Part shown: positions 50,855 to 56,092 of the stretch, one piece after another
Layout of the letters: every line of letters starts with the position of its first letter
Position numbering within the stretch: position 1 is the first letter of the stretch
Source: Ferruginibacter sp.
GTDB taxonomy: Bacteria > Bacteroidota > Bacteroidia > Chitinophagales > Chitinophagaceae
Direction of reading: 5' to 3'
Assembly (NCBI GenBank): GCA_025963635.1
Contig: JAOQAK010000080.1
Location: 62,001 to 126,000, forward strand
DNA: 64,000 nt
Translations under genes and position numbers: made by a program
The notes under the pieces: generated by a model
What the model saw: the letters and a program-made list of their open reading frames with translations, nothing else
Told to the model about the DNA's origin: nothing
Database searches by the model: none

Positions 50855-51161
50855 AGATTTTTATTTGTGGGTATTTAGGCAAGGTAAGCGGTTATTAAGA
50901 AAAACAAAATAAAACGGCGACTATATACATACCGACACAAGGTTTTGCAAGTACTTCACACTTAATGGTTTCCTCAATTTTTCACTTTTAATTATACTAT
51001 TTATCCACATATGTAAATCTCTCAACTAAGATACTTTTGCCAAAATGTCAAATGTTGTCCGCAGGAATGTTCAATTAAATTTCAAGTAAAGTGAATGGTA
51101 CAATATAAAAAATTTCATTTTATCTTTTTAAACTCCTATTTTGTTTACAAATTTTTAATAA

Positions 51162-51803
51162 ATGCAAGCTGTAATGAAAATTAAAGGCAAGTTTATAGCC
51201 ATTTTTGGAATAATCTTACTCACCGCATCTTTCTGGTTTTTAATTAAAACTGTTCCCCTGATGGAAATGGTAGAGCTATTTTTAATACACACAATAATAG
51301 GGTTTATTGTAGCGTTCATATTTTTGTTATTATTGCTTAGGTTTTTTCGTCCCCTGATTGAACTATCGTCTTTTATCTGCAAGAATGGAGATAAATATAT
51401 ATTTAAAATTGTCAACAAGTCAATATACCACGCCTTTGATTGTAAGTTTGAATTATTTTTAATGGAACCAATTCATCATACGGGAGGGCATACCAATATA
51501 AAAATAACTCCAATCTCATTGAAAATTTCAAATTTAACCTTCCTACCAAGAAACAGAGTAAAAGATCATGAAAACGATCCGTATTCGCAATTTGCACATA
51601 CTTTTTTTACAGAAGAAGACTTGGCACCATCGTTAAGCGCAAATGGAACTTATTTAGAATTACATATAAATGCTCGCCACGGGCTTACGGGATTGTCACA
51701 TACCTTTAAACAGCGATTTAAAAATGAGGCTATTATTAAAGAAAATAGCAAATTCTGCTTCGGTAACAATTTAGGAACGATGTCTATAAATGAGGCTTAT
51801 TAA
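51162..51803 (+). CDS. Hypothetical membrane protein of the AT-rich region
   Basis: 213 residues. Two N-terminal membrane spans (about 10-28 and 38-60) are followed by a beta-rich soluble part of about 150 residues (EPIHHTGGHTNIKITPISLK, HNARHGLTGLSHTFKQRFKN-like INARHGLTGLSHTFK). No homology recognised. Base composition is more AT-rich than the preceding housekeeping genes, and this is the first gene of the accessory region. An inwardly rectifying channel-like topology (two spans then a large beta domain) comes to mind, but no pore motif such as TxGYG is visible. Confidence 0.6.
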   Translation: MQAVMKIKGKFIAIFGIILLTASFWFLIKTVPLMEMVELFLIHTIIGFIVAFIFLLLLLRFFRPLIELSSFICKNGDKYIFKIVNKSIYHAFDCKFELFLMEPIHHTGGHTNIKITPISLKISNLTFLPRNRVKDHENDPYSQFAHTFFTEEDLAPSLSANGTYLELHINARHGLTGLSHTFKQRFKNEAIIKENSKFCFGNNLGTMSINEAY

Positions 51804-51960
51804 CATACCATTGTTTACTTTAGCATAATAATTGCGTCTAATCTTTAGGAATTATCAAAATAAATATTACATTTATAAAAACTAAGCAGCATGGAAACAA
51901 ATTTTTGTTTGAATTTCGATAGTGAATCGACCAAGTAAACAATATTACTAAAGATAATTT

Positions 51961-51983
51961 GGGGGCGCATTAGCCCCCTTTTT
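51961..51983 (+). terminator. GC-rich hairpin terminator at the left edge of the DUF262 locus
   Basis: GGGGGC (51961-51966) with GCCCCC (51973-51978) followed by five T residues. A 15-codon frame (51891-51938) lies just before it. Confidence 0.8.
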
Positions 51984-52061
51984 ATTTTAAAAAATTCCCT
52001 ATTGATGTGTCAGCCGCAAGGCTATTAAGAAATACAATAATTCAAAGAACTTAAAAACTAC

Positions 52062-52184
52062 TTATTTAACTTTCTTCTTACCCACCTTTTTAGGAAGCGG
52101 GGTATTGAGTGCTTTCTTCATAGCTTCTTCAAAGGGCATGTTCAGTTTAACAGGTTCATCCTTTTTGTTTTTTTTCTTTGTCAT
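52062..52184 (-). CDS. Small basic 40-residue protein downstream of the DUF262 nuclease
   Basis: ATG 52184, a clean frame to TAA at 52062. The product starts MTKKKNKKDEPVKLNMPFEE and ends PLPKKVGKKKVK: strongly basic at both ends with an acidic/hydrophobic centre (MPFEEAMKKALNTPLP). It begins 9 nt after the nuclease stop, so co-transcription is near certain. Similar tiny lysine-rich proteins accompany other Bacteroidota accessory genes, but I know no function. It may help fold, inhibit or tether the nuclease. Confidence 0.6.
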   Translation of the reverse strand: MTKKKNKKDEPVKLNMPFEEAMKKALNTPLPKKVGKKKVK

Positions 52185-52193
52185 GGCTAAGTA

Positions 52194-54014
52194 TTATAAT
52201 TTCCAGATTTCCTTTGCTAATTCATAAAGGTATTTTTGTCTTGTGTCAATTTCAGTATAACCCCACTTTTCATAATCGACTAAATTCTTAGTTATTGTTA
52301 TTATTGATTTAGAATAATACTTTTCTTTTTTTATTTTGAAATCCCTATTAGAAGCTCCGATGTTCTTTTCTTTTTTGATATAAGTTAAATTCCCCAATCT
52401 GTTAAGGTATTCTTCGTAAGTTTCTTTATTACTTGACTGCAAAATCTCCCATTCCCCGGCGACTGTTTGTGGCATTATATGTTCAAACCAAACATTGGTT
52501 GTTGCAAAATCAATTCCTTCATCGCCCATTGAATTAATTATTCTCTTAAGTATCATTTTAGAAAATCTGGGAGCAGCAGTAATAAAGTTACTTTTAAATT
52601 TATCTTCATCAGTCATTGATGAATGGTCTTTAATTTTCTTAATCATGTTGTCAATTTCATTATCAGATTTAAGTCCCTTAAGTAAATCTTGATAGTATAG
52701 CTGTTCTAAATCTTTTGGCTCTTTGTTTAGTATGCTATGACGTAAAGAGATACTTTCAATCCCTTTTGCAAGTCTTTCAAAATTCTTTTCATTTAGTTTA
52801 TTTTTCGCTCTTAGTAAGAGGGGGTAACATTTAGTAAGATTCATCGCCCTTAATCCTTCTAAATATGTCGTGTATTTTTTGGAACTAATGGCAGGACGGT
52901 AAAACTCACTATAAGTTTCTGCTTTTTCCTTCAAATCTTCTAAAAAAGTAAGAATATCTTCAACTTGGTTTATTTTATATTCATAAGCACTAAAAACCAT
53001 TTTTTCTGGTATAATGGGCAAAAAAGTTGACTCATCTATGGTTTCAGACGTGTTATGTTTTTCAAGGTATTTTCTTATTTCAATAGCATCTTCTAAGTGG
53101 TTTATGTAATGGAATAGAAACAAATCCACATTTGCTTTTTCATCTTCAATCGTAACTCTCATTTGATCCCATAGGCTAATAGCGTTTTCTATACCTTGTA
53201 TTGTACTGTCACTTTCTTTTACCTTAATACAAACTTCATTTTTTATTAAATCTGATTCAGAAAGCTCTATACCCCTTGAATTTAGAGTTTTAAAGAGCAT
53301 CCTTTGATCTTCCTTTTTATTAGTCGAAATGCTTATGTATAAGCAATCTGTTATTTTATCCAGGTATGCAATTAATTCTCCGATACTTCTTTTAGCTACA
53401 AAATCTTTTGTTTTTGTATTAAGAAAAACATAAGCATTCAACAATAGCTTGTGTGATTTTCTTCTTAAATCCTTTTCTTTAGTATAATCGATGCCTTGTA
53501 GGATTAATTTAAATAATTCCCTATCTCTTCTTCCAGTAGTAAGATATAAGTCATTGCTTTTGGATATATCGGATGCTTTGGTACTTCTTTTATAGATTAT
53601 TTCTTCAGTCTTGCTTACAGCTTTTACCATTCTTGCTGTGCTAATTGGGTCTTTATCTTGTAGACCTTCGTACCATTCTTTAACACGTTCTCTAATGCAA
53701 TATATTATTAAAAAAATAGTAGTTAAACGTTGTTGCCCATCAATGATTTCAGTAATATTATTTTCATTTATAAAGAATAAGAAAGAACCTAAAAAAAGAG
53801 GGGATTGGTCACTTGAATTATCGATGTCGTGAAATAAATCTGAAACTTGTTCTAATTCCCACGAGTATTCCCTTTGATAAAGAGGCACTTCAAGCGGTCT
53901 ATTATCTAAATTAGTTTTAAGACCATCTAATTTTGAAGGGTTTGTAACTTCCATTGTTATTTTTTTAGAAAATGGAATATACATAACATTGTCTAAAGTT
54001 TCACGGTTTTTCAT
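52194..54014 (-). CDS. GmrSD-like DUF262 and DUF1524 (HNH) nuclease
   Basis: 606 residues. DUF262 domain: VPLYQREYSWELEQVSDLFH (about 43-62), then FLGSFLFF and the DGQQR motif (92-96) in EIIDGQQRLTTIFLI. C-terminal DUF1524: EHIMPQ (His 512), RLGNLTY (539-545) and the NRDFKIKKEKYYSKS tail, the HNH-like nuclease layout of GmrD/Sso-type enzymes. GmrSD proteins cleave modified (glucosylated) phage DNA using NTP hydrolysis. Here both parts are in one chain. It starts 4 nt from the transposase stop on the same strand. Many Lys/Ile/Asn codons agree with the local AT bias. Confidence 0.88.
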   Translation of the reverse strand: MKNRETLDNVMYIPFSKKITMEVTNPSKLDGLKTNLDNRPLEVPLYQREYSWELEQVSDLFHDIDNSSDQSPLFLGSFLFFINENNITEIIDGQQRLTTIFLIIYCIRERVKEWYEGLQDKDPISTARMVKAVSKTEEIIYKRSTKASDISKSNDLYLTTGRRDRELFKLILQGIDYTKEKDLRRKSHKLLLNAYVFLNTKTKDFVAKRSIGELIAYLDKITDCLYISISTNKKEDQRMLFKTLNSRGIELSESDLIKNEVCIKVKESDSTIQGIENAISLWDQMRVTIEDEKANVDLFLFHYINHLEDAIEIRKYLEKHNTSETIDESTFLPIIPEKMVFSAYEYKINQVEDILTFLEDLKEKAETYSEFYRPAISSKKYTTYLEGLRAMNLTKCYPLLLRAKNKLNEKNFERLAKGIESISLRHSILNKEPKDLEQLYYQDLLKGLKSDNEIDNMIKKIKDHSSMTDEDKFKSNFITAAPRFSKMILKRIINSMGDEGIDFATTNVWFEHIMPQTVAGEWEILQSSNKETYEEYLNRLGNLTYIKKEKNIGASNRDFKIKKEKYYSKSIITITKNLVDYEKWGYTEIDTRQKYLYELAKEIWKL

Positions 54015-54017
54015 TGG

Positions 54018-54932
54018 TCAAAGTTTTTGGGTTAATTTCTTATAAGTTAGCCGGTATCCATCTGCATTACTTAGGCTGTTAACAAACCTTTCCTTATCTG
54101 TTATCTTTCTCGTATTGTACCGGTAACTTGTTTCTTCGCAATATTGCTGTAAATGTTTTGGGCTGATCTGGTGGTAAATTCCATAGATAGAACGTTTAAG
54201 GCTTGAAAAGAAACCTTCTACGGTATTTGTGTAGGTCATGCCGTCTCTATATTGTCCTTGTGAATGATTAACCGTTGTATGTCCGGCAAATTCATAAATT
54301 AGCCCTTGATAAGATAAATGTGTATCAGTCATTAGCAAGGCAGACGAATTAACATTTTCTCGTATAACATCTTTCCACGAACTATTTCCTATAACTGTCA
54401 ATCTTGCTTTGCCATCCCTTTCTAACATTCCCATTATACCTACTTTATTATCCATATTTAATTCCTGATATTTTTTGCGCCGATCAAGGTGCATATTTTT
54501 GAATTTTCCCCCCACATACGTTTCGTCTATCTCAACTGTATTCTCCAAAGGTTCGGGGGCAGGGTCGCCCATTATATATCGAATACGATGTAATATGAAC
54601 CAAGCGGTCTTTTGGGTAATTCCCATATCTCTTGCAAGTTGGCAACTGCTTATTCCTTTTTTGTGGGCAGTAATTAAAAACATTGATCCCATCCATGTAG
54701 CCAAAGGAATTTTAGATTTCTCAAAAATTGTTTTTACCGTAACTGTAAAATTCTTTTTACAGGTCTTATCGCTGCACCTGTAAAGTTTGCCGCCTTTCAA
54801 TTTGTAAGGTCTTGGAGCATTGCAATGTGGGCAGGTTGGATTTCCACCCCAGCGTAATTGAGCATAATATTCCCGGCAAACATCCTCGTCTTTGAGGTAG
54901 GTCATTAGCTCTTTTAAGTTTTTAAATTCCAT
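54018..54932 (-). CDS. IS1595-family transposase
   Basis: 304 residues. N-terminal zinc ribbon (Cys 34, 37, 53 and 58 in CPHC and CSDKTC) and a helix-turn-helix segment (CQLARDMGITQKTAWFILHR). DDE core: Asp 136 in VEIDETYVGGKF, Asp 203 in LMTDTHLSYQG and Glu 239 in NTVEGFFSSLKRSIYGI. The C-terminal HLQQYCEETSYRYNTRK is a family hallmark. All catalytic residues are intact. It is first in a same-strand run with the DUF262 nuclease. I did not find convincing terminal inverted repeats. Confidence 0.9.
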   Translation of the reverse strand: MEFKNLKELMTYLKDEDVCREYYAQLRWGGNPTCPHCNAPRPYKLKGGKLYRCSDKTCKKNFTVTVKTIFEKSKIPLATWMGSMFLITAHKKGISSCQLARDMGITQKTAWFILHRIRYIMGDPAPEPLENTVEIDETYVGGKFKNMHLDRRKKYQELNMDNKVGIMGMLERDGKARLTVIGNSSWKDVIRENVNSSALLMTDTHLSYQGLIYEFAGHTTVNHSQGQYRDGMTYTNTVEGFFSSLKRSIYGIYHQISPKHLQQYCEETSYRYNTRKITDKERFVNSLSNADGYRLTYKKLTQKL

Positions 54933-56092
54933 GATTTAGTGATTTTAAGATTTACGAAATGTTTTAGTAAATCTAATAGTTCGGTAATAATGTCAGGGGA
55001 GATGGATAGCACATTTTAGCCACCTGCTAAACAGGTCTTGCTAACATTTTTATTTCTGCCTGTGTTGATATGTATATAATCGCCAATAAAACTTCGTTAA
55101 GAAGCCTGCTACATTTATTAGCATGGCCTAATGTCAACCTGTCAATTCACCACAAAATTCATTACTAAATTTTGTAGGATTATATTTTAGGTATTAATGT
55201 TTTATTTACAACATATTAGATGTATAAATATCATTTTTAATATTCAGTATATGCACACCTTATATCAAATAAAATTCCAAATAAGACATCGTTAAACCAT
55301 TCGATAGAATTCCATAATTTTATGTCAGATAACATATTCATTATTAACGTTTTATGACTTATAACGAAAGTTTAAGTTCATTTACAATTCACATAAAACT
55401 ATTATTGTATATTTAAGCGCCTTCAATCGCCGGTTTTGGCAGCATTTAAATAAAATGGAGAGATTTGAAGGTCTACTCCATTTGGTATTCACGATGAGCT
55501 TACAACGCACTTAAAAATTTTGTAATCGGTAAGCTTGGATTTACTGCTATAATGTCATAAGGAGATGAAAATTATTCTGTGCCGTTTTAAATTTCGTGAG
55601 TTGCTTAGAATCGGGTGCAGAGTTGGTTCGTCCTGTAATCGTAAGGCGGGAAACTTTGGTGGACGATGAGCACTAACAACGGAAACATTGTCACGGGCAA
55701 AACCTGCAACATGAAAAATTATGGAACAAACCGTTAAAAAATTCACGCCTTGCCGGAGAGGCAGGTGTTCGCGTTGAAAGAGGAAAAATGGAATAGGTTC
55801 AGCAATCTCCTGGAACTGGGGAGAAGATTTAGCACTGCGTGCCCGGTAGTGTAAACCAGATCGCAGCTGACGCGATTTATGTCAGTCGTGTGAACAGGTG
55901 AGAATATTGCTTTGCCACACAGGGCGGGGGTTAACCAGATACCTAACTTTTTAAGGAATGCAAATCTATATATTATGAATAAAATTGGATTTAAAAAAAA
56001 TGTATTCAAGGAGATTTATAGGCCACATCGCTACCATAATTAAATATGATCTTAATTGCTATGTGTTTACTAGCCGAACCTGGCATCTAAGG
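54933..56092. other. 1.16-kb non-coding region with structured segment
   Basis: The left half (to about 55500) is very AT-rich, with a hairpin (AAATGGAG 55453-55460, CTCCATTT 55476-55483). The right half is more GC-rich. At 55615-55673, GTGC pairs with GCAC and TCGTCC with GGACGA around a loop of 27 nt. Minus-strand frames at 55555-55746 and 55743-56009 have no protein features. This could be a degraded element or a non-coding RNA. Confidence 0.4.

Follow-up and report, generated by a model that had tools for sequence, protein, structure and literature searches.

The IS1595 family of insertion sequences (IS) was reportedly defined by Siguier et al. in 2009, who are also said to be credited with the idea of the transporter IS (tIS), in which passenger genes lie between the ends of the IS. 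Examples are MTnSag1/tISSag10 and tISCpe8 (PMC3129680, PMC9330008, PMC5704250), which are mobilizable elements, tISCpe8 carrying lincomycin resistance. GmrSD, BrxU and SspE enzymes are also known, and their motifs have been described (PMC4619093, PMC4437046, PMC10952713). Here, we report that a 64,000-nucleotide stretch of Ferruginibacter sp. contig JAOQAK010000080.1 (hereafter the window) contains at 50916-55084 what is almost certainly a single complete passenger-carrying transposon of the IS1595 family, of the transporter-IS kind and with its borders included. Like MTnSag1/tISSag10 and tISCpe8, it combines an IS1595 DDE transposase, short inverted repeats, a target duplication and passengers within one pair of ends. 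One of its passengers resembles the single-chain GmrSD type IV enzymes (Eco94GmrSD; also BrxU and SspE) in uniting the DGQQR motif of DUF262 and the E/D-H-N-N motif of DUF1524 in one chain. Taken as a whole, the locus is very probably best explained as a complete transporter-IS element with a nuclease as cargo and a small accessory protein linked to the transposon.

The borders can be read from the sequence itself. The terminal inverted repeats are 24 nt long and match at 21 of 24 positions, and a perfect duplication of the octamer AATAAAAC stands on either side of them; 8 bp is the target-duplication value of the IS1595 family. A pattern spanning both ends occurs at only two places in the window, where shuffled sequences gave an expectation of 0, and with no mismatch allowed these two places are the only ones in the 6.6-Mb genome. 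With two mismatches, four further places appear in the genome, which is the level of the reversed-pattern control. Moreover, a script that looks for paired ends and an 8-bp duplication around the transposase returned this pair alone. The repeats enclose the transposase, the GmrSD-type gene and an open reading frame (ORF) of 213 residues; ends lying between the genes were rejected, as the only pair returned encloses all of them. The original prediction, which was made from the letters of this DNA and their ORFs, had proposed to locate terminal repeats and 8-bp duplications, and both are now in place. The borders, the duplication and the fourth ORF were absent from it. The AT-rich island that it described is borne out by a GC content of 0.321 in the element vs 0.399 and 0.390 in the 5-kb flanks.

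Three genes of the element lie on the minus strand, with gaps of 3 nt between transposase and nuclease and 9 nt between nuclease and small gene, exactly where the original prediction had put them. They form an apparent operon that, judging from this spacing, would be transcribed as one unit. The 213-aa ORF, a membrane-protein gene, runs in the opposite direction. The transposase matches Zn_ribbon_IS1595 (PF12760, 1.5e-11) and DDE_Tnp_IS1595 (PF12762, 8.3e-37) in Pfam and exceeds the cut-off of the NCBIfam model IS1595 (NF033547, 4.6e-52). It thus has the N-terminal zinc ribbon and the DDE domain of the family, and D136, D203 and E239, assigned by eye from motif positions, are its presumed catalytic residues. 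The nuclease matches GmrSD_N (PF03235, 9e-35) and GmrSD_C (PF07510, 8.6e-22). Among 35 aligned sequences, the window's included, DGQQR at residues 92-96 is invariant, as are H512, P515 and N542, and E511 and N556 are conserved in at least 90%. The E/D-H-N-N signature of the DUF1524 His-Me domain is present, both asparagines being equated to the published ones by eye. The protein families named in the original prediction, and its statement that the DDE, DGQQR and HIMPQ motifs are intact, therefore hold. The window nuclease differs from Eco94GmrSD, BrxU and SspE by an E-H-I-M-P-Q motif rather than D-H-x-x-P, by its location within a small transposon and by its low similarity to solved relatives (DUF262 protein 9jfl, E 5.6e-14; SspE, E 8e-10). 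From its domains and motifs, restriction of modified foreign DNA is a probable, though far from assured, role.

Table 1. Features of the passenger-carrying IS1595 element, in window positions
Feature	Position	Strand	Basis and remarks
Left 8-bp target-site duplication AATAAAAC	50908..50915	.	Read from sequence; recovered by script
Complete passenger-carrying IS1595 transposon (transporter IS)	50916..55084	.	4,169 bp; inverted repeats and duplication; relatives share the plan
Left terminal inverted repeat GGCGACTATATACATACCGACACA	50916..50939	+	Inverted-pair listing and pattern search
213-aa passenger ORF	51162..51803	+	Two hydrophobic segments near the N-terminus; no family assigned; direction of transcription towards the trio
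Hairpin resembling an intrinsic terminator, GGGGGCGCATTAGCCCCC then TTTTTATTTT	51961..51978	+	After the 213-aa ORF; weak
40-aa basic protein, isoelectric point 10.3, K-rich 'LNMxFEEAMKKALNTPLPKK' family	52062..52184	-	Homologues, profiles, transposase tree
GmrSD-type (DUF262 + DUF1524) predicted nucleoside triphosphate (NTP)-dependent modified-DNA endonuclease, cargo, 606 aa	52194..54014	-	Pfam, motif alignment, similarity to solved relatives
IS1595-family DDE transposase, 304 aa	54018..54932	-	Pfam, NCBIfam
Right terminal inverted repeat, GGCGATTATATACATATCAACACA on the minus strand	55061..55084	-	Inverted-pair listing, pattern search, script
Right 8-bp target-site duplication AATAAAAC	55085..55092	.	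Read from sequence; script

We also found that predicted DUF262-type nucleases recur as cargo of IS1595 elements in four genomes (G275, G532, G612 and G712). The same trio is present in another genus of the family, with gaps of 4 and 9 nt (locus L092 of G275). A related trio, made of a transposase, a DUF262-HNH nuclease and a member of the same small-protein family with gaps of 12 and 12 nt, is bounded by ends matching at 23/24 positions and by a duplication (L108 of G532). Trios at unrelated sites, which the original prediction had counted as support, were thus encountered. In L156 (G612) the order is nuclease, transposase and KilA-N protein, with ends matching at 20/24 and the duplication ATAAATTA, and in L149 (G712) a GmrSD-type nuclease lies between ends matching at 24/24. 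None of the proteins that flank the window element was found in any of these four loci. Furthermore, a DNA methylase takes the position of the nuclease between transposase and small gene in L071 (G063), with gaps of 1 and 3 nt. Since the L149 and L108 nucleases are only 23.5-30% identical to the other cargo nucleases and to each other, nuclease genes were apparently acquired by such elements at least three times, as these comparisons suggest. Without counting the window and L156, which was found through the nuclease itself, DUF262 cargo occurs in 2/54 bounded elements (defined below) and in the unbounded L092. Relatives of the nuclease above 40% identity number four in 394 genomes (G275, G612, G672 and G469), those of G275 and G612 being inside IS1595 elements. 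Nuclease matches were present in 12 other genomes, nine of which were inspected (all but G261, G681 and G686). A location on phages or viral contigs was rejected: when viral contigs were scanned with the nuclease and with the alignment of the small protein, no relative was confirmed. Transposases of 36% identity occur in two unannotated 'phage' records, one of which (L216) has ends and a duplication according to the script.

The transposase belongs to a broad group. Homologues were found in 23 of 98 relatives (E <= 1e-3) and in 93 of the 394 genomes of the family Chitinophagaceae (E <= 1e-40), tallies that include the window's own genome. The transposase loci were fetched by best score and not at random, as 20 regions from the first of these searches and 60 from the second, with three more from small-gene matches, and were scanned for ends that start with GG, match at 15 or more of 24 positions and are flanked by a duplication of at least 7/8. 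Clear ends and a duplication were obtained at 54 of 85 related transposase places (L085, with a transposase remnant of 42 residues, is excluded from the 85), the duplication being 8/8 in 53 and 7/8 in one. Only two of 85 chimeras of unrelated halves passed the same rule, both with a 7/8 duplication. The ends of the relatives resemble those of the window (such as GGTAACTATATAC), and the 54 bounded elements measure 2.2-7.9 kb, with a median of 3.5 kb. No bare 1-kb insertion sequence is found among them; two distant transposases outside this set (L083 and L086) look bare, their paired ends being separated by about 1 kb, and failed the duplication rule. To judge from the 54 bounded relatives, elements of this clade usually carry passengers.

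The passenger list holds 149 ORFs of at least 90 residues and leaves out the bounded element L080 (7,933 bp), which may be a chance pairing; family scans used the 125 ORFs of at least 110 residues. Among the 25 of 34 Pfam families listed, P63C was matched five times, GmrSD_N four, GmrSD_C three, and Fic and NYN twice each, with single matches to N6_Mtase, KilA-N, SocA_Panacea, RelA_SpoT, PIN, AAA_21 and others. The first 25 of 147 PADLOC families listed include HEC-06 (three), HEC-09 (two) and SoFic (two). An all-against-all comparison left 127 clusters among the 149 ORFs, and the cargo is therefore very diverse.

Some relatives show particular arrangements. Five (L077, L109, L144, L146 and L153) share a cargo pair consisting of a zinc ribbon protein of transposase type (125-168 aa) and a P63C-domain protein (286-332 aa). 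Another five (L094, L100, L101, L102 and L111) are inserted into one short target (TTGCGTCGCAC...), with the duplication GTTGCGTC or one close to it, and AAGAGTGCGACGCAAC is a dispersed repeat with 53 places in the window's genome at up to two mismatches vs 2 for the reversed control. In L096 (2513-5464 and 5473-9616) and L080 (5151-8249 and 8258-16190), two different adjacent IS1595 elements share one copy of the duplication (CATAGCTT and TTTAGTGT, respectively), which suggests that one was inserted exactly next to an element already in place; for the second L080 element, a chance pairing is possible. Finally, L085 (4964-7231, in G050:C13; also L061) has paired ends like those of the window and no duplication, and retains the first 42 residues of a transposase, 79% identical to the window's. 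It is possibly a decayed or non-autonomous relative that carries other ORFs.

The 40-aa protein has no match in Pfam, NCBIfam or PADLOC. It has 46 homologues of 38-64 aa in a set of 5.8 billion proteins, and the segment AMKKALNTPL is invariant in 37 aligned sequences, the window's included, which identifies a genuine gene as opposed to a chance ORF. To count its family we used the 54 bounded elements together with L156 and the window, both added by other routes. With an iterated profile, members were recognised in 42 of these 56 elements, mostly with other cargo, and in 0 of 5,091 flank ORFs and 0 sequences of two decoy sets; the figure of 42 allows E up to 0.05, and 41 ORFs have E < 0.01. The unbiased first profile, built only from database homologues of the window protein, found 15 ORFs in the 56 elements, 0 in the flanks and 0 among decoys. 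Since iteration trains on element sequences, the profile was repeated on held-out halves: in five repeats, it gave 19-25 matches in 35-36 unseen elements, with 0 outside and 0 decoys. In whole genomes, the first profile was positive in four of the 396 from the order, namely that of the window and three more, each time beside an IS1595 transposase. A wider profile gave 21 matches in 18 of 198 genomes; eight of the 11 matches outside its training set lie by an IS1595 transposase.

Altogether, the family follows the transposase. On the transposase tree with 65 labelled tips, presence of the small gene changes five times vs a mean of 12.9 and a minimum of 8 in 300 shuffles; the small gene hence descends with the transposase. 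In this tree, eight loci without mapped ends were labelled as having the small gene by hand, as was Methylocystis, and a few fetched loci for which no full transposase ORF was picked are left out. In the Methylocystis rosea plasmid element, a member of the family overlaps the stop of the transposase. Among the 42 cases, the small gene lies within 250 nt behind the transposase in 12, has its 3′ end 55-97 bp inside a terminal repeat in 14 (its 5′ end never does), and shows neither placement in 18, including the window. Six of the 20 small genes that lie on the transposase strand more than 250 nt behind it have the plain order transposase, cargo, small gene and lack any ORF of at least 100 aa on the opposite strand. 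The proteins are strongly basic (isoelectric point above 9 in 40 of 42; median K+R 29%). The predicted structure of the window protein has a single helix at residues 18-27 (mean predicted local distance difference test score, pLDDT, 77; predicted template modelling score, pTM, 0.37), and a sequence-based search for structural analogues gave none that is convincing (best E 0.03). Being inherited with the transposase regardless of cargo, the small protein is a component of the transposon rather than a partner of the nuclease, and an accessory role in the transposon is the best interpretation of its family linkage. We lean slightly towards a role in transposition. In addition, a different charged protein of 46-61 aa (RFxEAARxL...) is encoded 0.2-1.4 kb downstream of the IS1595 transposase on alphaproteobacterial plasmids (L219, L220 and L221), and its gene is the last one of the bounded element in L219.

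We propose that the 24-nt ends would be the recognition sites of the transposase, which would mobilise the whole block that they enclose. The nuclease may bind NTP through its DUF262 domain, which carries DGQQR, and cut modified foreign DNA through its DUF1524 His-Me domain; such restriction would benefit the host and hence, selectively, the element. The small protein, lysine-rich and mostly unstructured apart from one short helix, is inherited with the transposase irrespective of its cargo, and would most likely bind DNA or the transposase, in transposition or its regulation.

Other explanations of the small protein need to be weighed. The trio could be a defence operon, GmrSD plus a small inhibitor or assistant, that sits by chance behind a transposase, in which case the small protein would be the nuclease's; the original prediction had likewise suggested an inhibitor or cofactor. 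The close spacing of nuclease and small gene (9 nt in the window and in G275, 12 nt in G532) fits such an operon, as do the G672 nuclease, which has a small gene directly behind it and no detectable transposase, and three metagenomic nuclease homologues that agree exactly with small-protein homologues in longest-contig size (9953, 5023 and 17843) and source labels, which suggests that these pairs sit on the same contigs. However, the small family accompanies unrelated cargo (an N6 methylase in L071, NYN in L094 and L095, AAA_21 in L096, Fic in L133 and L134, RelA/SpoT in L103, and many uncharacterised proteins), the small gene lies directly behind the transposase in other elements, and its presence follows the transposase tree. 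Indeed, only the window and L108 among the 42 elements with the small gene have a DUF262 gene by Pfam, and the small gene was not scored in the GmrSD-carrying L156 and L149 nor at the L157 locus. The inhibitor or cofactor was thus abandoned, and a chance defence operon is highly unlikely. Instead of taking a direct part in transposition, the small protein could also work as a general regulator or chromatin-like silencer that targets element promoters or the host nucleoid; in our view this is a less favoured but serious candidate. The basic character of the family, its one helix with otherwise low structure and the variable position and strand of the small gene within elements agree with it, but no known DNA-binding family was matched in the seven small or look-alike proteins scanned, and the search for structural relatives brought up nothing of note.

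Turning to the element itself, repeats and duplication might be a chance pairing around genes assembled separately. Short repeats are common in AT-rich DNA (285 inverted pairs were counted), and AATAAAAC alone is not rare: its 8 copies in the window equal the chance expectation, so that what is informative about it is solely that it stands at both ends. Such a pairing is already contradicted by the shuffles and the chimeras, and by the many relatives with similar ends and 8-bp duplications, and its probability is negligible. The element could also be a relic, an old insertion kept for the nuclease alone, as its single copy in the genome and its imperfect repeats would allow; the perfect duplication, the intact transposase with conserved motifs and the open state of all ORFs make this rather improbable. 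Several observations weigh against a complete and mobile element with an accessory protein of its own. The single copy of the transposase gives no direct sign of recent movement, and the LEA2 protein that flanks the element is only 53-65% identical in relatives, which precludes a strict occupied/empty comparison at the nucleotide level. The nuclease has no match in NCBIfam. Its homologue in G469 (45%) has neither IS1595 transposase nor small gene in the 14 kb fetched, and its nearest one, in G672 (64%), is followed directly by a small-gene sequence and has no significant transposase. In the latter, the candidate ATG is out of frame with the conserved core, and a 44-aa frame that starts with TTG and overlaps the end of the nuclease is open; a transposase remnant before the nuclease (13 residues by eye, E 0.17) was discarded, as the transposase profile gave no support. 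Moreover, 14 of the 56 bounded elements have no recognised small gene, among them the GmrSD-carrying L156, and L149, likewise with GmrSD, has only a look-alike, the 'FHNIMAASV' version that was scored as negative in four elements (L077, L144, L146 and L149). Finally, three of the 11 independent small-gene matches have no transposase in the fetched DNA: the first sits where a contig ends, the second is on a contig of 3.7 kb, and the third has no transposase within 11 kb. A complete transporter IS with nuclease cargo remains our reading, and the mobile element put forward in the original prediction stands, as repeats enclose the trio, a duplication flanks it and the trio recurs; the term 'self-spreading' is weakened by the single copy.

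The insertion point of the element is 61 bp upstream of a LEA2-type gene, next to which lies pyrE. In nine of 14 relatives' loci (L197-L210), LEA2 is flanked on one side by pyrE and a nudix gene, as in the window, and on its other side, where the element lies in the window, no ORF above 144 aa was found in the seven loci examined (flanks of 0.27 to 1.5 kb, same nudix-pyrE-LEA2 order). The neighbourhood is empty in these loci, which falls short of an empty site at base level. The original prediction had named a lone DUF262 gene at this place in close relatives, or ends between the two genes, as evidence against itself, and neither turned up in these seven loci or in the search for ends. The 213-aa ORF has no Pfam match, and no homologue was found among the fetched loci except from its own genome. 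The hairpin behind it carries little weight, because three terminator-like sites were found in the region vs a mean of 2.3 in shuffles. An RNA element was rejected, as no Rfam match was found in the window between 50000 and 57000. On the other side, about 1 kb without a convincing gene and without Rfam match (55093-56092) separates the element from an M56 peptidase gene.

Searches for defence genes usually follow islands, prophages, plasmids and large elements; the predicted type IV restriction enzyme described here belongs to a 4-kb element that has one transposase and mapped ends. A concrete new lead is offered by the conserved small basic protein, which comparative tests separate from the cargo. 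Our results suggest that small transposons of this kind form a family that moves defence-like genes around and has a second gene of its own, so far overlooked. As a tentative extension, possible though less probable than not, this IS1595 clade, which extends from Chitinophagaceae to the alphaproteobacterial Methylocystis rosea (at least one plasmid), would have an unrecognised second core gene for a lysine-rich protein of ~40-60 aa working with the transposase. Transposase and small gene would then be a fixed frame for swapped cargo (GmrSD, DUF262-HNH, DNA methylase, Fic, RelA/SpoT, NYN/PIN and AAA ATPases), and the elements, mostly of 2-5 kb, a carrier of immune-gene cassettes.

Among the elements compared, that of G275 (L092) is like the window's in its transposase (65-66%), its GmrSD protein (47-48%), its small protein of 44 aa and the order of the three. 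It differs in that the window's flanking proteins are absent nearby and in having a single end, found by eye, with 14-15/24 matches; the contig breaks off shortly behind the small gene, which explains the missing second end. The IS1595 element of Roseomonas marmotae plasmid p1318-1 (L219) also combines a transposase, passengers and a terminal small charged protein between ends matching at 20/24 with an 8-bp duplication. Unlike the window element, it is alphaproteobacterial, it carries a PIN protein together with another of 266 aa as passengers, and its small protein is of another sequence family. In the open-licence literature consulted, Siguier et al. 2009 not among it, we found no description of a GmrSD protein as IS1595 passenger or of this small protein. 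Compared with MTnSag1/tISSag10 and tISCpe8, the window element is distinguished by what it carries (the GmrSD-type nuclease, the 213-aa membrane protein and the small basic protein) and by its membership of a clade with a transposase-linked small protein. Transporter ISs and GmrSD enzymes were thus already known, whereas passengers as the usual state of a clade and a conserved small transposon protein look new.

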